A model generated the notes under the pieces. That model did no database searches. It saw only the letters and a list, made by a program, of their open reading frames with translations, and was not told the origin of the DNA. Positions 4,253-37,484 of a stretch of DNA of 37,484 nucleotides are shown here, piece after piece. The DNA lies in assembly GCA_903885445.1 (NCBI GenBank), contig CAISIO010000036.1:1-37484 (forward strand). Reading direction: 5' to 3'. Numbering within the stretch: the stretch's first letter is position 1; each line of letters opens with the position of its first letter. This DNA comes from Candidatus Staskawiczbacteria bacterium. Its GTDB lineage: Bacteria > Patescibacteriota > Minisyncoccia > Minisyncoccales > Staskawiczbacteraceae. The position numbers and the translations under genes were made by a program.

Positions 4253-4281
4253 TTGACATAGTAATTATAATATGATATACT
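4253..4281 (+). promoter_or_regulatory. Sigma-70-type promoter for the PEP-CTERM gene
   Basis: TTGACA (4253-4258), 17-bp spacer, TATACT (4276-4281). Confidence 0.8.
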
Positions 4282-4321
4282 TATGACTTAGGAGTTCGTT
4301 GTAAACAAAACAGTAATCTAC

Positions 4322-4374
4322 GGCATTCTCCGTGTGGGAGAGCCATATTCCAAGGAACGGGTCCAGTTGGACCC
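4322..4374 (+). promoter_or_regulatory. Structured 5' leader (two hairpins) just upstream of the SD of the PEP-CTERM gene
   Basis: Hairpin 1: GGC(at)TCTCC-gtgtg-GGAGAGCC (4322-4344). Hairpin 2: perfect GGGTCCA-gt-TGGACCC (4359-4374), abutting AAAGGAG. Confidence 0.55.
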
Positions 4375-4387
4375 AAAGGAGCCTCAG

Positions 4388-5113
4388 ATGAAGAACGCGG
4401 TGTTGGTTTCGATGGTGGCTGCGGTGTTGGTGACGTTCGGTGGCCTCACGTCCATGGCTTCGGCCGCGGGCGGATCCATTGGTTCGTCATCCTGGATCGA
4501 CCAAAGCTTCGACTTTGGCGACGTCAGGGGAGGGTACTCCACTGGTACCGACGGCGTTGGACAGATGGCGATGGGGGCGTGGTTGTCTGCGACATCCGGG
4601 ACAATCACAAACGCCTACATGAACATCTATCCGATGCCATGGATGGACCAGCCGGGGCAGACGTACTTTCAGGTGCGGGTGAGCTTTGATGGCACCTATG
4701 ATGTGTTGCCCACACTGAGCCCATATTTGGGCGAAAGTCAGTCGGCATCGCACAGAGGCGTGTCTCTCTCCGAGAGCATCAACCTCTACTCCTACAAGGA
4801 GTGGCTGCCCAACGACACGACGGATCCAACCGGTCCGGTTCAGGACAACGGCGGGGCTAGCGCAAGTATCAGTCCGTTCGTTATCACGACCAGTAACGGG
4901 GTTTTCCAGGACTGGTCCTGGACGAACCCCGATTCCGGTCAGACCTACAACGACTTTTCGTACGCGGTTTACTGGTACGGGTATACGGACAACCCTGCCG
5001 CAGCGACGATGTTCGGTTCGGTTCAACCAATGGGCGTTCCTGAGCCGGCGTCGCTGGCTCTGCTGGCCCTCGGCGGGCTGGCGGTAATCCGCCGTCGGCG
5101 GAAGATGCAGTAA
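4388..5113 (+). CDS. PEP-CTERM sorting-domain secreted protein
   Basis: Signal peptide (MKNAVLVSMVAAVLVTFGGLTSMASA) and C-terminal VPEPASLALLALGGLAVIRRRRKMQ, a canonical PEP-CTERM tripartite signal. ATG at 4388 preceded by 'aaaggagcctcag' (the ORF track start 4334 is upstream of the SD). Confidence 0.88.
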   Translation: MKNAVLVSMVAAVLVTFGGLTSMASAAGGSIGSSSWIDQSFDFGDVRGGYSTGTDGVGQMAMGAWLSATSGTITNAYMNIYPMPWMDQPGQTYFQVRVSFDGTYDVLPTLSPYLGESQSASHRGVSLSESINLYSYKEWLPNDTTDPTGPVQDNGGASASISPFVITTSNGVFQDWSWTNPDSGQTYNDFSYAVYWYGYTDNPAAATMFGSVQPMGVPEPASLALLALGGLAVIRRRRKMQ

Positions 5114-5150
5114 CCGGCCACGAGTGGCTGGAGGAATGCGCGAAAGCGCG

Positions 5151-5192
5151 GCGCTTGAGCACTAAGACCAATAGTGTATCAAGCGCTTTTTG
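5151..5192 (+). terminator. Terminator after the PEP-CTERM gene
   Basis: GCGCTTGA(gCACTA...TAGTG)taTCAAGCGC followed by TTTTTGTTTT. Confidence 0.82.
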
Positions 5193-5244
5193 TTTTGCAA
5201 AAAGTTTTTTATTTTGATATTATATACTAATTAAACATCAACAT

Positions 5245-19623: not shown

Positions 19624-20976
19624 TTATCCTGCGTCTGCTCCATAATTTGCTTTATCTAAATCTCTAAAACTTGCCATATTTTTTTCGAAGTACAATTCTA
19701 TAGACCCGGTTGCCCCGTTTCTGTGTTTTTCTATTATAACCTGGGCGACGCCGGGCTTTAAGCTGTTTTCATTATAAAAATCCTCGCGGTAAATGAACAT
19801 AACAACATCGGCATCTTGCTCGATTGCACCAGATTCGCGCAAATCAGACAAGCGGGGGATTTGAGGCACGCGAGATTCCACCGCACGGGAAAGCTGGCTA
19901 AGAACAAGCACCGGGACTTCCAATTCTTTCGCCAGCATTTTTAGCGCCCTGGAATTTTCTGTAACTTGTTGCACTGGCGACGCAAACCTGTTCATAGGCT
20001 CCATTAACTGCAAGTAATCCACAATTAACAAACTTAATCCTTTTGTTGACTGAAGTCGTCGCGCCATTGCCCTAATTTGCAAAATATTCACAGAGCCGGC
20101 GTCGTCTATATATAAGGGCGCTTCAGACAGGCTTCCCATTGCATGTTGGATTCTTGAATAGTCGTCGTTGGTTAATTGTCCGGTTCGTAAATGCCAGGCT
20201 TCAATATTTCCAGTGGAAGAAATTAATCTGTCAGCTAGCTGGTCTTTTCCCATTTCAAGGCTGAATATTCCAACCGGCAAATTTTCCCTGACCGCCACAT
20301 GCCTGGCAATATCCAAAGCCAACGAGGTTTTCCCCATGCCAGGTCTTGCGGCTAAAATTACCAAGTCGGTTTTTTGCAACCCTGAAAGTTTGTTATCTAA
20401 ATCTTTAAATCCGGTCGGAACGCCTCTTAAAGCGCCATGGTGTTTTGCCAGCGAATCCAATCTCTCAAATGTTTCAGGCAAAATATCTTTTATCGCAATA
20501 AAATTTTTTGTTAAGGCCCTTTGCCCGATTTCAAAAACAGTTTTTTCCGCCTTATCAAGCAAATAGTCGACTTCTTCCGTTTCGTCAAAAGCTGACAGGC
20601 CGATTTCTTCTGAAGCAGAAATTAAATCTCTTAAAATCTTTTTTTGCCTGACAATTTTGGCGTAGTTGGCAATATGCGTTGCTGTTGGAACGGTGTTTAC
20701 CAAAGAAGTTAAATATGATGAACCGCCGATATCTTCGAGTTTATTTCGTTCTTTTAATTTAGACTAAACAGATAAAATATCAATTGGCTCGGATCGTTCG
20801 TAAAGCTCGGCCATTACCTGGTAAATATCCTGGTGAATTCCTTTGTAAAAATCTTCGGCCTTAATGAAGTCGACAACTTTTACGATTGCTTCTTTATCCA
20901 ACATTAAGCAACCCAGCAGAGATTGTTCTGCCTCGTTATTCTGCGGGGGTAGTTTGTCGGGTGATGAATTTGCCAC
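19624..20976 (-). pseudogene. dnaB: Replicative DNA helicase DnaB interrupted by an in-frame TAG codon (20764-20766)
   Basis: N-terminal fragment 20764-20976 (PPQNNEAEQSLLGCLMLDKEAI...EPIDILSV*) and C-terminal RecA-fold fragment (AARPGMGKTSLALDIARHVA, LLIVDYLQLM) are in the same frame. The 20 codons between the stop and the downstream TTG start (20703) read SKLKERNKLEDIGGSSYLTS, normal DnaB sequence. Functional status unknown. Confidence 0.85.
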
Positions 20977-21030
20977 GTTTTGGTTGTTTAATAGTCCACT
21001 TTAGCAAAACCCAAAGAGCAGGTAAAGGTC

Positions 21031-21059
21031 TTGACATCAATAAAATTGTATGCTAATTT
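21031..21059 (+). promoter_or_regulatory. Promoter for ncRNA candidate
   Basis: TTGACA (21031-21036), 17-bp spacer, extended -10 TGC-TAATTT (21051-21059). Confidence 0.7.
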
Positions 21060-21064
21060 ATGCT

Positions 21065-21387
21065 TAGTACGGTCAATAACGCGATCCCTCTGGTTAGAGC
21101 AACACATACTACGGGGTACATAGGAAGGCAGCGTTATTGAGGTCAGTCAAAGCCGTTCCCCGGCCCCCAAATATGGGCTAAGAACACGGCTTGTGACGGC
21201 TCCCTTCAGGTTTGGACGCTTTGAGAATGGGACTTCTATCTTTTCTCAAACCAAACCTGCCGGGAAATTGATTGGCAGGGAGGCCTCAACCGGCAAACGA
21301 CTCGAAAACTTTCTCCGGTTGGACCTTCAGGCGCTTTCGCTTTCATTAATCGGGTTTGCCCGAGAATGAAGCGATCGCGCCTTTTCT
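21065..21387 (+). ncRNA. Unidentified structured non-coding RNA candidate (~320 nt)
   Basis: No plausible sense ORF; multiple strong hairpins (21074-21139, 21150-21192, 21207-21259, 21287-21321) and a long terminator hairpin at the 3' end; own promoter. Start inferred from the promoter. Confidence 0.65.
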
Positions 21388-21390
21388 TTT
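21329..21390 (+). terminator. Terminator of ncRNA candidate
   Basis: AGGCGC-ttt-CGCTTtCATT-aat-CGGG-tttg-CCCG-ag-AATGAAGCG-atc-GCGCCT then TTTCTTTT. Confidence 0.8.
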
Positions 21391-21397
21391 GCCTTAT

Positions 21398-22801
21398 TTA
21401 GATACTTTTTATAACCGGGCCATTTTCGGAATCCTGGACGGAAAATCCTTGGCTTTCTATTTGCTGCCGCACCTGGTCGGCTTTTTGCCAATCTTTGTTC
21501 TTGCGGTGCGATTCTCTTTCTTTTACCAGTATTTTAATTCCAGCCGGAATAGTTTTGTTTACTTTCTGAAAATTAATAATTCCAAAGATTTTATTAATCT
21601 CTTGGAAAAATTTATACACTTCAGCAGCTTGTTTTTTTGAGATGGAATTTTTATCCAGTAGAATATTCGCTTTGCTTATAAAATCAAACATTACTGCAAA
21701 TGCTTTCGGCGTGTTGAAATCATCGTCTAATTCTTTATAAAAATCTATTTTTAGTTTTTTTATTTCCGAATTGGCCTCTTTTGATGCTTTTGCAATTTTT
21801 ACAGATTTTAATTTTCTTAGTAATTCCTCAATTTTTTCAACTGCCCCCCTGACTTCAATCATCACCGACTCGGAATAATCCATTGGGCTAGACCAAAGAT
21901 TTTTTGATACGAGGAATCTAAAGATATTTACCGGACATCTGGCCAGTAAATCTTTTATTGTAATGAAGTTTCCCAGAGATTTAGACATTTTTTGGCCGTT
22001 AACAGTTAGAAATCCCACATGCATCCAGTATTTTGCCATCGGCCTTTTACCGGAAATTGCCTCCATCTGGGCTATTTCCGCTTCATGATGCGGAAATATT
22101 AAATCTCGCGCGCCGCCATGAATATCATATTGCGGGCCAAAAAATTTTTCCGTTATTGCCGTGTCTTCAATGTGCCAACCCGGACGCCCATCGCCGAATG
22201 GAGCTGGCCAGCTGGGTTCATTCTCTGAAGAAAATTTCCAAAGACAAAAATCACCTCTGTTTTTTTTATCTTTACTGTAATCAATCCTGGAAACCGCGTC
22301 TTCTGCCCCCAGTACCGTTCTTCCCGCCAACTTACCGTAATTTTTAAATTTAGCGATATTATAGTAAATTCCGTCGTTCTCTATTTTGTATGCGAATCCT
22401 TTAGTTTGAAGTCTCTGTACCTGGCTGATTATTTCCTTAATATAGTCAGTTGCTCTCGGATATTTTGAAACACTATCAACTCCAAGCGCCTTCATACTTT
22501 GCATCCATTCCTTTTCAAACGCAGAAGCTAAATCTTTAGGAGTCACTCCCTTTTCTCTGGCCCTGGCAATTATCTTGTCGTCAATATTAGTAATATTTTG
22601 AATATAAAAAACATCATATCCTCGACTTCTTAAATATTTAACGAGCAAGTCAAAGGTTATGGCCAATTTCGCGTGTCCTAAATGAGAATAATCAAAAACA
22701 GTCGGCCCGCAAACAAAAAGGTTCACTTTTTTTGCCTTAATAGGTTTGAATAAATCTTTTTTACCGGTTAAGGTGTTGTAGATTCTCAAATTATTTTTCA
22801 T
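21398..22801 (-). CDS. cysS: Cysteine--tRNA ligase
   Basis: FVCGPTVFDYSHLGHAKLAITFD, GRPGWHIEDTAITEKFFGPQYDIHGGARDLIFPHHEAEIAQMEA, KMSKSLGNFITI. Confidence 0.96.
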   Translation of the reverse strand: MKNNLRIYNTLTGKKDLFKPIKAKKVNLFVCGPTVFDYSHLGHAKLAITFDLLVKYLRSRGYDVFYIQNITNIDDKIIARAREKGVTPKDLASAFEKEWMQSMKALGVDSVSKYPRATDYIKEIISQVQRLQTKGFAYKIENDGIYYNIAKFKNYGKLAGRTVLGAEDAVSRIDYSKDKKNRGDFCLWKFSSENEPSWPAPFGDGRPGWHIEDTAITEKFFGPQYDIHGGARDLIFPHHEAEIAQMEAISGKRPMAKYWMHVGFLTVNGQKMSKSLGNFITIKDLLARCPVNIFRFLVSKNLWSSPMDYSESVMIEVRGAVEKIEELLRKLKSVKIAKASKEANSEIKKLKIDFYKELDDDFNTPKAFAVMFDFISKANILLDKNSISKKQAAEVYKFFQEINKIFGIINFQKVNKTIPAGIKILVKERESHRKNKDWQKADQVRQQIESQGFSVQDSENGPVIKSI

Positions 22802-28351: not shown

Positions 28352-28702
28352 TTATTTAGAGGTCTTTTTTATCAATAGCTCCAACAATTTTTTGGCTTCT
28401 ACGGTCGCCTCGTCTTGGGTTTTGCTTTTTGAAAATGATTGCCATTGGTTGAAAATTTCAGGATCGTTTAGGCCTCTCACCGCGGTTTCCAAGGAAAGCC
28501 TTGTTTCAAAATCGATTTGCTCTCCGGTGAGTAGAATTTTCTCAGTAAACAAGTTTCTAAAATCAAGAACCTTTCTATTTATTTGGTTTTGTTGCCATGC
28601 TTGAGAATTTTCCACTATAGCTGACACCAGGTATCCGTTAATCGCCAGGGAAAAGAAAGAAATCGCGCCCAACAAGAAAATAAAAAATATTTTTTTATCC
28701 AT
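28352..28702 (-). CDS. Small hypothetical membrane-anchored protein
   Basis: MDKKIFFIFLLGAISFFSLAINGYLVSAIVEN... start ATG at 28702 overlaps the stop of the giant gene by 8 nt (ATGGATAA); ORF-track start 28720 is further upstream. Confidence 0.7.
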   Translation of the reverse strand: MDKKIFFIFLLGAISFFSLAINGYLVSAIVENSQAWQQNQINRKVLDFRNLFTEKILLTGEQIDFETRLSLETAVRGLNDPEIFNQWQSFSKSKTQDEATVEAKKLLELLIKKTSK

Positions 28703-31700
28703 GACTTTTAATGTAAACAAGTATGCAAATTAGAATTATCACGAAAATAAATAGTAAGACCGATACAAGTAGCTGCCAATTAGCCCAGCCCGGCAAAATA
28801 TTTATTTTTTTAAGTTCAATATCCAGCTTAACGCCGTTATCTTCTTTTACAGAGAAGGCGTTTCCCTTAAAGCTGGCGTAACCAGGAGCAGAAACCGTTA
28901 AGTAATACTCTCCCTGCGGCACCATGAAAGAATATTTTCCTGTGTCGTCTGTTAGCGAGGGATTTTTCTGTAAGAATCTTTCAGCCGGCCATAATTCATA
29001 TTCTTTTTTGCTCGGGTTGAGCCAATAAAGGGAAACCGATGCATTTTCAATTCTAAGTTTTCCGTCGGCAGTTTGTTTGTAAACGTATCCTTCGGGATCA
29101 ACTACGGTGGTCATTTTTGTTTCTGTTGGCGTAATTGATTTGTCCTTGTACTCCACAACGGTTGTAACCTGATATTCTCCTCCTGCAGTCGGAGCATTAA
29201 TTTTTGCTTCAAAAACTCCAGGTCTAACTTCAGAATAGTCAAATTTTTGAACTAGCAGTCCGCTTAAAGCAGAGCTTTGCGATTGTTCAAGCGGTTGTTG
29301 AGCGGCAGCCAATGCTGCGCCGAATAACTGCGCCAAAATATTTCTATGCGGTTTGCTTAGTGTAGTTAAAGGATGTGTCAGCGTCATAAGCCCGGTTACT
29401 CGGCTGGCGGGATTAGCAGGTTTTATGACTAGTTGTAATGGCTGGCCGGAAATAGCAGTAATTTTTTGCTCGGCATTGCCTTTAGCGTCTATAATAAGAG
29501 AAGGGCTAAAATCAATCAGTTCACCGGCCGTCCTGGCAAAAACCATATTAGTCGGAATATTATTTATAGCGGAAGCGCTTAGCTGGACTAAAGGAATTGC
29601 ATCAACCGGCGCGGCAGAACCAATATTTTGCCCTTCAGGATTAGTTTCTGCTGATGAGGGGAGGACGGTTGCCGTTAATCCGGGCAAATATAACTCCGTT
29701 TGATTTAATTTTTCAACATCGGCTGGTTTACCAGTGTCGATATTTAAGGACTCTAATGTTTCTTTTAGCTGTGGCAATTTATCAGCAAAAAATCCGATAT
29801 CAGATTGAACCGGAGCAATATTTAAATCGCCAAGCGGGTTTACGCTCATAACCTGTAAATTCTGCAACGCCTCGGGTGTTTCCTGCGGAACAGATTCGTT
29901 TATCGGCGGATAGGTGATTTGCGGCGCGGGCGGCTGGATTCCCAGGAGTTCTGCTACCTGCTGTGTTAACTGCGTGATTTGTTGGGTAATTGTGTTTGTT
30001 TGCTCGGCAGGTGTTTCGGGCGGAGTTTGCGGAGCCGGGGCAGAGGATGGAGGAGTGTACAAACTGCCACTGCCGCCAACAGGGTTGTTACTATGATTAA
30101 TCACGCCCCATTTCAAATTGAAACTGGCCGTAGCACTATTGCCGACATTATCAACCACAGTTAAACTAATAACATAGTCACCATCTGTATCAGCTGTAAT
30201 TGTTGTGCTTTCTGCGTCAGCTGAGCCAAAGGTAACAATTCCAGGACCTGAAACTTCTGTCCATAAGTATGACGCAATCCCAGAACCGGCTTCATATATA
30301 TCACCAACTTGTGTAAATGTGCTGGCTTCTGTTCGGTCAGCTCGTGCCGAAACATCTGGAGGAGTTGTATCAATTTTTATTGATTTGGAAACTGTTGTTT
30401 GCGTATTTCCCGCGGCGTCTTTTGCGGCGTATCTAAAGTATGAATCAGGACCGTTCAATCCCTCCGACAAACTGACCGCGTAAGGCGAAGATAAAATCGC
30501 GCCACCAGTCGTCGGGTTGCATGTATTTGCCGTATCTCTGCAATAGTAAACCGCGGCAAGTCCAGATCCGCCCACATCACCCGGCGTCAAAGTAATTGTT
30601 TGATTGCTATTTTGCCAAACTCCATCCTTAGCTCCATAATCATCGGTCGCCGTTGGAGTAGTCTTGTCTATATTAATTGTCTGCATCACTACGGTTTCTG
30701 GATTATTCATCGCGTCAGTCGAATAATATCTTATATATGAAGTTCCGAGCGTAGAGATGACGGGCTTGCTGCTTGGGTTGTAGCTTAAGTTTGGAGTGCA
30801 GGCGTTAGATGTGGTGCAATACAGGGTTACTCCACATGGTGAACCGCCCCCGTCTCCGCAGGTAAGAGTTACTGTGACGTCCTGGCTAGACCAATTTGTG
30901 CTGAAATTATAGCCGTTACTGCCGCTGGCAACCGTGGTTGGAGCCGTCGTATCAATTTTTACAGTTTTTGTGACAGTGGTTTGCGTATTACCCGCGTTGT
31001 CTTGCGAAGCATAGCGAAAGTATGAAATTCCTTCAGTGGAAATGGAGACGGGGACGGTGTAAGCAGTACCAGTGCTAGGGTCGCAGGAAATACTGCTTGT
31101 GCAGTATTTTGTCCAAGCGATTGAAGAGCTTGGGGCAGGGTCAGTTGGAGTCAGGGTGATTGTCTGGCTAGTTGATTGCCACGAATCATTGTGAGTGAAG
31201 TTGTCTGTGGTTGTTGGAACTGTCGCATCCCAGATTAAGGTGAAATCATCTGTGCCGGAGTTCGTCGCGTTATCTGTGGCAGTTAAACGGATAACATAGC
31301 TTCCGTCTGTATCAACTGAAATTGTTGTTTGAGCTGTGGTGGATGTGCCGAAATTGATTGCTCCGGGACCCGACACTTTAGACCATGAATATGAAGCAAC
31401 TCCAGAACCTCCAGTGTCTGTGGCTGAACCTGTCTGGGTAAATTGAGTTTTCTTTATTTGGTCAGCTCCTGCGTTAGCAACAGGGTTTGTTGTATCCCAC
31501 ACTAAGGTAAATTCATCATAGACAGCTGTGCTTGCGTTGTCGGTGACTGTTAAACGAATAATATAAGTTCCTTCCTGGCCGGCGGTCACTGTTGTGTCTT
31601 CAGTAGTTGCTGTGCCAAAAGTTATTGCTCCGGGGCCCGATACTTTAGACCAAAGATAACTGGCTATGCCGGACGAACCTGCAGAGACTGTTGCATCCTG

Positions 31701-34700
31701 AGTAAATATGGCTTTCTTTGATTCATCGACGCCAGCGTTAACTGACGGACCATTTTTATCTATGTTAATTGTCTGGCTCTTAACTGTTTCTGTGTTATTA
31801 ACTGCGTCAGTGGAATAATATCGTACGTATGAAGTTCCTGCCGTTGAAACGGTGACAGTGGTCACGCCTTGTATATACGGCGTTGATGGAGTGCAGGAAT
31901 TAGATCCTGCGCAGTACAAGGTTGCTCCGCACCCAGACCCGCTTCCATCTCCGCAAGTTAGAGTGACCGTGACGTTTTGGTTGGTCCAACTGGTGCCGAA
32001 CGCGTATCCGTTACTGCCGCCAGCGACCGTGGTTGGAACGGCTGTATCAATCATGACTGTTTTAGAGACAGTGGTTTGCGTGTTGCCCGCGTTGTCTTGG
32101 GAAGCATAATTAAAGTAGCTTGTTCCTTCAATGGAAATGACGACCGGGACAGTGTAAGCAGTGCCTCCGCTCGGATTGCAACCGCTTCCGCTTGTGCAAT
32201 ACTTTGTCCAAGCGATTGAGGAGCTTGGGGCAGCGTCGGTTGGAGTCAGGGTGATTGTCTGGTTGCCCGATTGCCAGCTGGCGTTGTGAGTGAAGTTGTC
32301 TGTAGTTGTTGGGACAACGGAGTCTAGCTGGAAACTGATAGTGGTGGCAGTGCCGGCTGTGTCTTTGTATGCTTGGGTATTATCTTCACAAGCAGTGTAA
32401 ACCGTTGCTGATGCAGAATCTGAAATTAACGGCATTTGACAAGAGATTGATGTTGTTCCATCGCCCGTGCAATCAGTGTCGCCTGACATATTATCATAGG
32501 ACTTTGCTGAAGTTGCTGCTCGGCAATCTCCGTTCGCGCTCAAGGTTAATGTTATCAGCGGAGTATTGTCGGATGTTAGATATGGAGCAGAAGCATCACC
32601 ACCGACATTAGTGATAGTTTGGGTTGGGACGCTGGCGCCGATAGTCATAGTTTTGTCATCAGTTGCATCAACAACCCCGGTCGGTCCTTCGGCTAACAGA
32701 GAAAATTGTCCTGATGTTGTGGAATTAAAATTCTTAGCTTTCAATCCTGAAATTGTTACAGTGTCTCCGGCAACAAAATCAGTTGTAACATTTATTGTAG
32801 CTATTTTATTTGTGCCATCGTAAGTTACGTTACTGCTGGAAGCAACTTTGCTGGCATTTGTACCGCTAATAGTCGCAGTTGCAATTGTATTATCCCAAAT
32901 CATATCCAAACCGCTTGGAATTTTTATGCTTATGTCGCCGGTTGTATTGTCAGCTCTAATCAAAGGAACCGTTGCGTCGTCAGTGATTGTAATCGGAGAA
33001 ATTGTTGTAGATCCTGCGCCTAAAGCAAAATTTGTACTGGCGCCAGAAGAAATTGCGGGCAAGCGAGGAACATAAAAGGTATCAAATATGCTATTTGTAG
33101 TATCGCGCGCGGTAACCTTAAGCCGGTCAGCGCCCGCCTCAACAACTAAATAATGAAAACCATTATGCATATACTCCAAATAAGGATAAGTTGCGCACGG
33201 AATTCCGCAAGCCAATAGATCTGCTTCGGTGGGCGCCGTGGTAAGCGTAGCTCCTCCTCCGCCGGTGACAATTTGCGTCATTCCTTTTTTGCCCAACGAA
33301 GTCTCGGGCTTGAATACGCGCTGATATATATGAGTGTGGCCGTTGAATATAAGGTCAACGTTTCCTACGGCCAAAACATTATCCATTAAATCAATCAATC
33401 CTGAATCCGGGCTGTGGCCGGTTGGAGCTGTTGACCATGAATACGGCGGAACGTGAATCATTGCGATTCGCCATTTTGCGCCTGTAGCAGCAGAAGAAGC
33501 AAGGTCGGCTATCGCCCAATTACGTTGCGCTGACCCCGCGCCATTTCCCGCGTTGCTGTCTAAAATTATAAAGTGAGTATTACCATAATTGAAAGAATAA
33601 TAATAATTATTATTTGAGTTTCCATCGGTCGGCGCGTCAAAATATTTTGGGAAAGTTGTTGGAGAGCTTCCTCCCGTATCATGGTTTCCATAAACATTAT
33701 AAAGGACAGCATTTTTAGTCTGGTTTCTATATGGAAGGAAAAATTGTCCTTGCCATTCTGTATCTCCTCCGCCCATTGTGTGGTCTCCTGTAAAGAAAAA
33801 TATAGTTTTTGGATTGGTAGGGTCAGCGTCTGCTGCGTTGGAAATTATATTGGAATTATTCCAAAAAGCAGAGGACGGACTATCAGCGTTAGTAGCAACG
33901 TCTCCACCAACAGTAAAATTAAAAGCTGTTCCGGCTGCCGGAGCTGTTTTAAATGTGGAGTCCGCGCTTTTTGTTCCACTTCCATCGGTTACTTGATAGT
34001 GATAGGTTGCATTAGTGCTTAAGCCGGTCAAAACTATTTCGTGCTCATATAGGGTTGTAGAATTTACGGCTACCGGCGTTACGGTTTCATTCACGGTTGT
34101 TCCGTAACTTGAAGTGGCGCCGTATGCAACGCTTCCGGTGGCAGTTGAAGTGCTCGACGACCAAGCAATTTCGATACTTGTTGTTTCAACGTTTTCCAAA
34201 TAAGGGTAAACTGCGGTTAAAGTTGATGTTCCCATGGTGACAGGAAAACTTCCAGCCACAGTGGCGGTCGACGTAATATCGGTGCCTGCGAGTATTTCCA
34301 CTCCAGCAGTCGGAGCGGGCAAAGGTATTATTAAATCAGTAACGTCCACCAGAACGTGCACATAAGTACTGCTTCCCGCCGCTATGCTCAATCCTGAAAA
34401 AGCAGCCTTGTTTGCGGTAAAAGTTGAAACTGTACCCAAAACAGTTGTATCGGTCGCAGAATTATAAACCCCATTGCCATCGTCCGCAACTAATTTTATG
34501 TTTGAAAAGTCAGTGCCCGCCACGGAGTCGTTTCCATACTGCGTTAAAGTGATTGCAGAAACCGTTCCGGTGCCGGCAATTTTAAAAGTCCCAAAATATT
34601 GGCTTGCGGTATCTGGTAAAAATGTGGCGGCTACGTTGGCTTGATTGGAAAATGTTGCGCTTGGGCCGGTGATAGTAATTGTTTTAGTATCTGTAGCTGC

Positions 34701-37484
34701 CGTTGCTCCGCCAGAGCCCGCAACAATCAACACCATATTGCTGGCAGTAGAAGTATTTGAAAAGTTATTAAATTTAAGGCCATCAATTGTTATAGAATCA
34801 GATGCAACGAAATCGCTTGTCACCGGGATGACAACCGTGTGATCGGAATCTTCGTAGGTTACATCAACGCCTGTATTTATTTTTCCGGACGCGCCTCCGC
34901 CAATTGTCGGACGTTTTATGCTGTTATCCCATGTCATATTAAATCCTGCGGGAATTTTTACGCGCAAATCATTAAGAGCGGTAATTACCGGAGTATCAGA
35001 AGCGTCGGTCACTGTGATTTGCGCGGCGGTAGTTGAACTGTCGCCAACAACAAAACTTTGATTTGAGCCAGAAACCATTGTTAATGGGGTAGAGGAAACA
35101 CCTTCTTGCACAAGTTTTAAAGCGTTAAGATAAATCTTGCTAATCGGCGTATCTGTTTTGACGGTAAGTATTATTGTTCCGCCTACCGGAGTTAAACTGG
35201 TCCACTTAGCGACATAACCATCGACTGAATTATATCCTGTGTTATAAGTTGTTGAGTCGTTTGTAAGAGTTGTAGTTGAAATGGTTGTTCCAGCCGGACT
35301 TGCGTTAGTAAAGCCGGCAGTGACATTAGAAACTACAAATTTAGCCGGACGGGTAAAAGTTGAATCTGCTCTTATTCCTGCAGCTACCAAAGTAAACGTG
35401 CTGGCAGGAAGTCCGCTAAAAGTCACCGTAAAACTTCCGGCCTGGCCAGCAGAAGTTCCAGACGCTGTCACATAACCCATATTTATTATATTTCCAAATT
35501 CCGTAAACATCGGCGTTCCGCCGGGAGCTGCGGTAACCGGCGGCACAGCGGTTTCCGGTCCGATATTAAGCAGGGTATTCGCATTTAGATTGTCGGCAAA
35601 AGCAATTGTAACTCCTGTGTCGCTGCCATCAGCGTAATTTAACAAATGTCCGGTGTTTCCAAACCCGTAATTAGTTACGTTTCCAGTTGAAAGCACACCG
35701 GCAGTTGTTCCTCCGCAATCGTCATAAGCAGTGAATCCCGCGCTAATTGTAATTGTTTTATCATCGCTTGCCGTAGCCGTGTTCGCAGAATTTCCACTGA
35801 CAATTAACTGTAAATTATTGGCAGTTGAGGCGGCTGAAAAAGTTTTAAATTTCAATCCGTCAATCGTCAAGGTCTGTCCATTAGCAAAATCAGAAGTGAC
35901 GTCTATAATTAATGTGCTGGTTCCATCATATGTGACAGTAGTGGAAGCCTTAGCCGATGCTGTTCCGCCAAGCGTGGCTGTGCCGATGCTTGTATCCCAA
36001 ATCATATGAAATCCTGTTGGAATTTTAATGCGGATATCGTTGGCGGCAGTAATGGCGTGGTTAGTTGCGTCGTCGGTAACTGTAATTGTAGAAATCGTAG
36101 TGGGGGATTGATTTACAGAGAACGTCTGTATCGCCGCGGAAGAAATTGTTGGCGCTCCAATTGCTTTTGTTTTGTCATCGGTAGCAACAGCAGATCCGCC
36201 GGCGCCGGCTATAATTAATTGCAAGCTTGATGCGCTCGATGCGGCAGAAAAAGTTGTGAGCTTTAAACCAGAAATTACAGCTACATTTCCATTGGTAAAA
36301 TTACTGGCTACATGAACATATGCGGTTGTAGCGTTATCATATTCAACTGCCGGCGTTGCCGACATTTTTCCCGCGTCAACAGCAGTTCCGCTCGCAGTGG
36401 CAGAAGTGATTGTCTGGTCCCACACGGCGTGAAGTCCCGCAGGGATTTTAATTCTGATTCCGCTGGCAGAAGTGATTGTCGCGGTTGCCGCGTCAGTAAC
36501 AACTATGTTAGAAACCGCCGTTGAAGGATCGTTCTTAGCGAATGTTTGATTGGCGGCAGATGAAATTGAAGGAGCGACAACCGTAATTGTTTTAGTATCG
36601 TTTACAATTGGCGAACCGCCAGTGCCGGAAACAACCAAACCCAGATTGCTTGATGTTGAAGACGCGGTAGCGAGAAATTTTCCGCCGTCAACGGTTATTG
36701 AATCGGAAGCTGCAAAATCGCTGGTAACAGGAATTACCAAGGTATGATTTGAATCCTCATAAGTAACATCTACGCCCGTATTTATTTTACCAGCCGCGGC
36801 TCCGCCAATTGTCGGGCGCAACACGGAAGTGTCCCAGGCCATGTTAAATGCAGCCGGGATTTTAATTCTGATGTCACCCACGGCAGTAATGGCAGGCGAC
36901 GTACTGTTATCAGTGATGGTTATCTGCGACATTGTTGTGGCGCTGCTTCCAGCAACAAATGTTTGATTGGCGCCCGAAACCATTGCAGGAAGCCCGGTAA
37001 TCGTGACTGTTTTATCATCTGCAGCCGTTGCTGTATTGGCTTTATTTCCGCTAACAATAAATTGCAAATTATGCGCGGACGATGCTGTAAAAGTTGTGAA
37101 CTTAAGTCCGGCAATTGTTAACGTTTGCCCATTTGCAAAATCAGATGTAATATCCACCTTTAAAGTAGTTGCATCATCATAGCTTACAGTAGCCGATGCC
37201 TTTGCTGAAGCCGTGCCACCAAGAGTTGCTGTTGTTACTGTCTGATCCCATTCCATATTTAAACCGGAAGGTATTTTTATGCGGATATCATTTGTTGCGG
37301 ATATCGCGTGATTGGTTGCGTCGTCGGTAATAGTTATCGTGGAAATTGTTGTCGCCGAAGCGCCGACGGCAAATGTTTGGTTAGCGCCTGACGAAATAAT
37401 TGGCGCGCCGATAACTTTTGCTTTTGTATCGTTAGCCACAACTGTTTGCCCGGCGCCGGCAACTACTAATCCAAGGTTAGAGGT
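28695..37484 (-). CDS. Giant repetitive surface protein with embedded purple-acid-phosphatase-like domain and C-terminal TM (partial; N-terminus beyond window)
   Basis: Open frame continues to the window edge (…TSNLGLVVAGAGQTVVANDTK). Repeat modules, FN3-like + metallophosphoesterase motifs, REJ/PKD-like and Ig-like modules, coiled 'NTITQQITQLTQQVAELLGI', carboxypeptidase-regulatory-like region, TM 'LLVSVLLFIFVIILICILVYIKSHG'. Confidence 0.88.
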   Translation of the reverse strand, partial: TSNLGLVVAGAGQTVVANDTKAKVIGAPIISSGANQTFAVGASATTISTITITDDATNHAISATNDIRIKIPSGLNMEWDQTVTTATLGGTASAKASATVSYDDATTLKVDITSDFANGQTLTIAGLKFTTFTASSAHNLQFIVSGNKANTATAADDKTVTITGLPAMVSGANQTFVAGSSATTMSQITITDNSTSPAITAVGDIRIKIPAAFNMAWDTSVLRPTIGGAAAGKINTGVDVTYEDSNHTLVIPVTSDFAASDSITVDGGKFLATASSTSSNLGLVVSGTGGSPIVNDTKTITVVAPSISSAANQTFAKNDPSTAVSNIVVTDAATATITSASGIRIKIPAGLHAVWDQTITSATASGTAVDAGKMSATPAVEYDNATTAYVHVASNFTNGNVAVISGLKLTTFSAASSASSLQLIIAGAGGSAVATDDKTKAIGAPTISSAAIQTFSVNQSPTTISTITVTDDATNHAITAANDIRIKIPTGFHMIWDTSIGTATLGGTASAKASTTVTYDGTSTLIIDVTSDFANGQTLTIDGLKFKTFSAASTANNLQLIVSGNSANTATASDDKTITISAGFTAYDDCGGTTAGVLSTGNVTNYGFGNTGHLLNYADGSDTGVTIAFADNLNANTLLNIGPETAVPPVTAAPGGTPMFTEFGNIINMGYVTASGTSAGQAGSFTVTFSGLPASTFTLVAAGIRADSTFTRPAKFVVSNVTAGFTNASPAGTTISTTTLTNDSTTYNTGYNSVDGYVAKWTSLTPVGGTIILTVKTDTPISKIYLNALKLVQEGVSSTPLTMVSGSNQSFVVGDSSTTAAQITVTDASDTPVITALNDLRVKIPAGFNMTWDNSIKRPTIGGGASGKINTGVDVTYEDSDHTVVIPVTSDFVASDSITIDGLKFNNFSNTSTASNMVLIVAGSGGATAATDTKTITITGPSATFSNQANVAATFLPDTASQYFGTFKIAGTGTVSAITLTQYGNDSVAGTDFSNIKLVADDGNGVYNSATDTTVLGTVSTFTANKAAFSGLSIAAGSSTYVHVLVDVTDLIIPLPAPTAGVEILAGTDITSTATVAGSFPVTMGTSTLTAVYPYLENVETTSIEIAWSSSTSTATGSVAYGATSSYGTTVNETVTPVAVNSTTLYEHEIVLTGLSTNATYHYQVTDGSGTKSADSTFKTAPAAGTAFNFTVGGDVATNADSPSSAFWNNSNIISNAADADPTNPKTIFFFTGDHTMGGGDTEWQGQFFLPYRNQTKNAVLYNVYGNHDTGGSSPTTFPKYFDAPTDGNSNNNYYYSFNYGNTHFIILDSNAGNGAGSAQRNWAIADLASSAATGAKWRIAMIHVPPYSWSTAPTGHSPDSGLIDLMDNVLAVGNVDLIFNGHTHIYQRVFKPETSLGKKGMTQIVTGGGGATLTTAPTEADLLACGIPCATYPYLEYMHNGFHYLVVEAGADRLKVTARDTTNSIFDTFYVPRLPAISSGASTNFALGAGSTTISPITITDDATVPLIRADNTTGDISIKIPSGLDMIWDNTIATATISGTNASKVASSSNVTYDGTNKIATINVTTDFVAGDTVTISGLKAKNFNSTTSGQFSLLAEGPTGVVDATDDKTMTIGASVPTQTITNVGGDASAPYLTSDNTPLITLTLSANGDCRAATSAKSYDNMSGDTDCTGDGTTSISCQMPLISDSASATVYTACEDNTQAYKDTAGTATTISFQLDSVVPTTTDNFTHNASWQSGNQTITLTPTDAAPSSSIAWTKYCTSGSGCNPSGGTAYTVPVVISIEGTSYFNYASQDNAGNTQTTVSKTVMIDTAVPTTVAGGSNGYAFGTSWTNQNVTVTLTCGDGSGSGCGATLYCAGSNSCTPSTPYIQGVTTVTVSTAGTSYVRYYSTDAVNNTETVKSQTINIDKNGPSVNAGVDESKKAIFTQDATVSAGSSGIASYLWSKVSGPGAITFGTATTEDTTVTAGQEGTYIIRLTVTDNASTAVYDEFTLVWDTTNPVANAGADQIKKTQFTQTGSATDTGGSGVASYSWSKVSGPGAINFGTSTTAQTTISVDTDGSYVIRLTATDNATNSGTDDFTLIWDATVPTTTDNFTHNDSWQSTSQTITLTPTDPAPSSSIAWTKYCTSSISCDPSTGTAYTVPVSISTEGISYFRYASQDNAGNTQTTVTKTVKIDTTAPTTVASGSNGYNFSTNWSSQDVTVTLTCGDGGGSPCGVTLYCTTSNACTPNLSYNPSSKPVISTLGTSYIRYYSTDAMNNPETVVMQTINIDKTTPTATDDYGAKDGVWQNSNQTITLTPGDVGGSGLAAVYYCRDTANTCNPTTGGAILSSPYAVSLSEGLNGPDSYFRYAAKDAAGNTQTTVSKSIKIDTTPPDVSARADRTEASTFTQVGDIYEAGSGIASYLWTEVSGPGIVTFGSADAESTTITADTDGDYVISLTVVDNVGNSATASFNLKWGVINHSNNPVGGSGSLYTPPSSAPAPQTPPETPAEQTNTITQQITQLTQQVAELLGIQPPAPQITYPPINESVPQETPEALQNLQVMSVNPLGDLNIAPVQSDIGFFADKLPQLKETLESLNIDTGKPADVEKLNQTELYLPGLTATVLPSSAETNPEGQNIGSAAPVDAIPLVQLSASAINNIPTNMVFARTAGELIDFSPSLIIDAKGNAEQKITAISGQPLQLVIKPANPASRVTGLMTLTHPLTTLSKPHRNILAQLFGAALAAAQQPLEQSQSSALSGLLVQKFDYSEVRPGVFEAKINAPTAGGEYQVTTVVEYKDKSITPTETKMTTVVDPEGYVYKQTADGKLRIENASVSLYWLNPSKKEYELWPAERFLQKNPSLTDDTGKYSFMVPQGEYYLTVSAPGYASFKGNAFSVKEDNGVKLDIELKKINILPGWANWQLLVSVLLFIFVIILICILVYIKSHG
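30670..32325 (-). repeat. Large duplicated block (Ig-like pair) flanking two REJ/PKD-like modules
   Basis: ~560-bp block at ~31760-32325 and again at ~30670-31225: both encode PTTTDNFTHN(A/D)SWQS..QTITLTPTD.APSSSIAWTKYCTS... to ...SY(V/I)RYYSTDA.NN.ETV; high nucleotide similarity (e.g. 'gttgtgagtgaagttgtctgt(a/g)gttgttgg'). Confidence 0.85.
33075..34215 (-). other. FN3-like plus purple acid phosphatase-like metallophosphoesterase domain within the giant protein
   Basis: Five metal-site motifs in order: VGGDVATN, FFFTGDHTM, VYGNHDTGG, MIHVPPYS, FNGHTHIYQR; preceded by ETTSIEIAWSSSTSTATGSVAYG...THEY-like FN3 segment ending YHYQVTDGSG. Confidence 0.85.
35740..37420 (-). repeat. Four consecutive ~140-aa beta-rich modules
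   Basis: Conserved core '(I/V)TDxAT..I.(A/S)..DIRIKIP.G..M.WD.S...(T).GG'; DNA anchors near 37267, 36852, 36437 and 36015 (about 415-422 bp apart). Further copies near 34948 and 32916. Boundaries approximate. Confidence 0.85.

Follow-up and report, generated by a model that had tools for sequence, protein, structure and literature searches.

The gap between dnaB and cysS in the analysed DNA of the tiny, uncultured Candidatus Staskawiczbacteria bacterium (the whole stretch of 37,484 nt, referred to here as the window) carries an unannotated unit at nt 21031–21390 that is, on balance, probably a lineage-specific, stand-alone structured non-coding transcript of about 325 nt, which a variable slot holds as its present cargo. 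No counterpart turned up in 247 related genomes, and relatives have unrelated small genes behind the shared promoter at this place, so that the unit is read as a young local gene and not as a new universal RNA or a widespread family.

Organisation and folding of the unit

As stated in the preliminary description, the unit points away from dnaB, a minus-strand gene with its GTG start at 20976, and runs towards cysS, whose stop codon is at 21398; the terminator of the unit sits just before that stop. The promoter (nt 21031–21059, plus strand) comprises TTGACA at 21031–21036, a 17-bp spacer with TGC, and TAATTT at 21054–21059; its TTGAC box and an upstream block can be aligned in most of the relatives that have a large gap at this place (see below). 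The −10 box is weak: a TG stands upstream of it, but only three of its six bases fit the consensus, and the promoter was therefore absent from the output of the promoter scan. With the start placed from the −10 box, the predicted transcript covers nt 21066–21390 of the plus strand. On the minus strand, a putative promoter of dnaB (nt 20998–21026) was read by eye and consists of a −35 box TTTACC (21026–21021), a 17-bp spacer ending in TGC, and a −10 box TAAAGT (21003–20998), a block that is kept in syntenic relatives. The two −35 boxes stand back to back, that of the unit beginning 4 bp from the putative −35 box of dnaB. The dnaB gene itself has an in-frame TAG (nt 20747–20769, minus strand) where 25 of 25 aligned relatives have serine, and this TAG may stem from the assembly or from variation in the population, or it may truly be a nonsense mutation in an essential gene.

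The predicted transcript begins with a 5' domain (nt 21073–21140) in which a perfect 10-bp outer stem (21073–21082/21131–21140), recovered in the fold and in the stem count, encloses an inner hairpin with the loop UAGAGCAACACAU. There follow the predicted hairpin AAGCCGU/ACGGCUU (nt 21150–21192; stem 21150–21156/21186–21192), a 17-bp hairpin with a one-sided bulge of 4 nt (nt 21207–21259; pairing 21207–21215 and 21220–21227 with 21243–21250 and 21251–21259), and the hairpin CAACCGG/CCGGUUG (nt 21287–21321; stem 21287–21293/21315–21321). The first and last of these three have lone 7-bp stems that are at chance level when taken alone. The region around the last (nt 21280–21325) was also considered by eye, and then dropped, as a place of integron attC-like boxes; the box matches are partial. 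The unit ends with an intrinsic terminator (nt 21329–21390), a long interrupted hairpin and then UUUCUUUU; the hairpin spans about nt 21329–21382 and is followed by TTTCTTTT, the T-tract being on the plus-strand side only. This hairpin was not listed by the terminator scan. Promoter, stems and terminator were all found where the preliminary description had placed them, the outer stem being 1 bp longer than claimed.

The number of stems exceeds expectation. With the terminator left out, nt 21062–21325 contain six perfect stems of at least 7 bp versus 0.9 expected (reached in 0 of 400 dinucleotide shuffles) and two of at least 9 bp versus 0.04 expected (0.25% of 400 dinucleotide shuffles). The fold of the whole unit has a z-score of −4.2 to −4.6, or −2 to −3 without the terminator, and most of this signal is supplied by the terminator (z −5.6) and the 17-bp hairpin (z −4.9 alone). 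The fold of the reverse strand is at least as stable (z −5.1 to −6.6), and the strand of the unit is therefore set by the promoter and the T-tract.

Known RNA families and homologues

The Rfam search proposed in the preliminary description was carried out, and no family in Rfam 15 matches the locus at the gathering thresholds. At E ≤ 10 there were only weak terminator-like or chance matches, the best scoring 17 bits against thresholds of at least 50. RNase P RNA (RF00010) gave no match at nt 20900–21450 even at E ≤ 10, and tmRNA (RF00023) was found at the locus neither by covariance model nor by ARAGORN. The genome carries both genes on other contigs, RNase P RNA at C35:22480–22822 (109 bits) and tmRNA at C6:115777–116130, which bears out the earlier view that the unit is neither of them; other housekeeping RNAs are excluded by way of the absent Rfam match at the locus only. 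The lack of a match in Rfam, together with the excess of stems, supports the description of the unit as unannotated, structured and apparently non-coding, with its own promoter and terminator. Literature searches returned nothing on the dnaB–cysS slot or on such RNAs, and neither BLAST of phages and plasmids nor pattern scans of viral contigs gave a match.

Relatives of the CysS protein place the source in Candidatus Staskawiczbacteria (Patescibacteria). No homologue of the unit was detected by BLAST in 11 congeners, 35 family members and 247 genomes of the order, and there is no second copy in its own genome. Two covariance models, one for each half, recovered the window alone from the 247 genomes; as they were built from a single sequence and run with strict filters, a strongly diverged homologue could escape them. 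In a small search these models also returned a hairpin in genome G184 at E 0.013, a value that is not significant across the order. A conserved structured RNA family would be expected to show homologues with covariation, and the searches of the 247 genomes yielded no homologue. The suggestion of a housekeeping-class RNA or a new family was thus not upheld: the corresponding slot in relatives is nearly empty or contains unrelated small ORFs, and this absence of conservation is what the preliminary description had itself named as speaking against a family. The analysis gave no sign that the candidate RNA has a conserved role in the cell.

The inner 5' hairpin agrees with one array in G184 at 23 of 24 bases (96%), the 24-base BLAST match having an E-value of 2.2e-4 in that one genome and about 0.05 over 247, and AATAAC/GTTATT also flanks the array. 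At L038 1227–1600, G184 has three tandem promoter repeats, then three tandem copies of the hairpin repeat and a terminator-like hairpin; small orphan genes follow downstream, and one of them specifies a likely membrane protein. This hairpin repeat, to which the match had led, is a dispersed palindromic repeat of the order with the consensus CCCCAGTAGTAGAGCAAAGCTCACTACGGGGCA. It was found by pattern in 28 of 247 genomes, a model gives as many as 15 copies in one genome, and compensatory base changes occur in its stem. Its GTAG motif is reminiscent of REP elements; one copy is present in the genome studied here (G000:C26:1531–1606), and further loci are L119–L148 and L149–L178. Membership of the inner 5' hairpin in this repeat is not claimed, as a model built without the window and G184 gives it 9.1 bits (E = 3.2).

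The dnaB–cysS gap in relatives

The gene order pgsA–cysS–dnaB–recR is conserved across the family while the dnaB–cysS gap itself varies. Among the 26 relatives in which cysS and dnaB are adjacent, the gap measures 25–112 bp in 12 and 372–1289 bp in 14. The large gaps mostly hold a unit of promoter, cargo and terminator in the same orientation as in the window. Of these 14, 13 have a cargo of one or two small ORFs, typically behind a ribosome site and read in the direction of the window unit; the remaining one (G001, locus L016) has a non-coding cargo built of short repeats. The encoded proteins are mutually unrelated except at L010 and L015, which have a protein in common (42% identity, E 7e-31), and for this reason the slot can be said to carry real genes.

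What the window shares with the slots of its relatives is confined to the promoter side, namely a CAAAA block, AAG and TTGAC. Consistent with this, when the window gap was compared by BLAST with the 26 syntenic gaps, the promoter segment aligned best (L009, L010, L013 and L016; E from 3e-9 to 0.01), and the cargo part had no significant match. Three relatives (L021, L027 and L029) retain a TTGAC-containing promoter remnant and have no cargo. The GC content of the predicted transcript is 51%, compared with 37% for cysS, 42% for dnaB and 33% for the promoter side, and the cargo of several relatives is likewise higher in GC than its flanks. The raised GC fits a foreign or new origin of the cargo but is no proof of it. 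Without its terminator the window unit has a fold z-score of −3.0; the 12 scored coding units of relatives lie between about −1.3 and +1.6, L015 excepted. The latter (genome G003) is a two-ORF unit that, though coding, reaches z −6.9 without its terminator, far beyond shuffled sequence.

A second gap in the window, between mrdA and lysS (nt 4253–5210), has an AT-rich TTGACA promoter, a gene of 59% GC (window overall, 41.5%) with a PEP-CTERM motif, and then a terminator-like hairpin with a T-rich tail. In relatives it ranges from 17 to 1341 bp with differing contents, and one of them (G004, L200) encodes a protein similar to the product of the PEP-CTERM gene. As this gap is likewise variable, the dnaB–cysS slot is not unique. 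The window also codes for a protein of 2914 aa (nt 28695–37439, minus strand) with PKD-like repeats, a metallophosphatase domain and a C-terminal hydrophobic stretch, which is probably a surface protein.

Interpretation

A non-coding RNA cargo is favoured by the conserved promoter side and variable cargo, the stems in excess, and the lack of homologues and of any ORF match. Against it stand the poor −10 box, the equal folding of the reverse strand and the presence of a 58-aa ORF with a GTG start, and the reading draws on one sequence of the unit. If it is correct, the promoter would be active and the RNA would have been gained, or have newly arisen, recently in this lineage. The 5' stem and the terminator may stabilise the RNA, which, if it acts, would be a trans-acting accessory small RNA. 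Firing of the common divergent promoter region may also modulate transcription of dnaB or compete with it.

The strongest competing reading is that of a relic yielding a functionless transcript, either a decayed small orphan gene or palindromic repeats that accumulated behind an active promoter. We regard this as rather unlikely. It would fit the coding cargo at this place in relatives, the rapid turnover of cargo, the non-coding unit of short repeats in G001 and the commonness of dispersed palindromic repeats in these genomes, but is opposed by the stem excess, including the nested 10-bp stem and the 17-bp hairpin, by the single-copy nature of the sequence, and by the finding that the small proteins of relatives gave chance matches only, with no remnant of any of their ORFs in the unit. 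Coding and minus-strand readings are weaker. A coding reading, in which the transcript is the mRNA of a small protein that evolves fast and the hairpins form a leader structure, is improbable in spite of the small ORFs in 13 of 14 large gaps: the 58-aa GTG ORF (nt 21193–21369) overlaps the terminator hairpin, lacks an obvious purine-rich ribosome site and matches nothing, the longest ORF having no match in PHROGs or Pfam, and the unit has no ATG ORF of more than 26 aa and no noted ORF led by a Shine-Dalgarno sequence. Finally, cysS and dnaB are co-directional and the minus strand folds well, but a minus-strand structure at the 3' end of the cysS transcript or in a read-through leader of dnaB is very improbable, given that a T-tract follows the hairpin on the plus strand only, that the entire structure is followed downstream by the putative promoter of dnaB and that the divergent plus-strand promoter is conserved.

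Taking the unit as a non-coding RNA cargo, a bolder proposal sees the gap in Ca. Staskawiczbacteria as a slot dedicated to exchange, in which short foreign or newborn protein or RNA genes are swapped between a conserved divergent promoter and a terminator, with a functional structured RNA as cargo here; we consider this speculative and unlikely. The suspected housekeeping RNA gives way to a testable picture, that of a conserved divergent promoter beside the replicative helicase gene with a fast-changing small cargo that may sometimes be RNA. Provided that their cargo is functional, slots of this kind would offer a compact site for studying how genes are born and taken up in bacteria that depend on hosts and have reduced genomes.

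Compared with known systems, the unit falls in the size range of RNase P RNA and tmRNA but differs from them in having no Rfam match, and both of those genes lie elsewhere in the genome. With the dispersed hairpin repeat of the order it has 23 of 24 bases in common, in the inner 5' hairpin and one G184 array, and the covariance model of the repeat made without the window gives that hairpin 9.1 bits (E = 3.2). Slot units of Ca. Staskawiczbacteria relatives (L009–L036) occupy the same place in the same orientation, with the same promoter region and a terminator at the corresponding position, yet they carry ORFs, most with ribosome sites, and the window unit does not. Orphan small RNA genes of bacteria differ in that the candidate has no homologue and occupies a slot holding protein genes in relatives. 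It resembles them in being intergenic and structured, with a sigma70-type promoter and no good ORF, and the own promoter and intrinsic terminator that mark a stand-alone small RNA gene are both present, as judged from motifs and conservation only.
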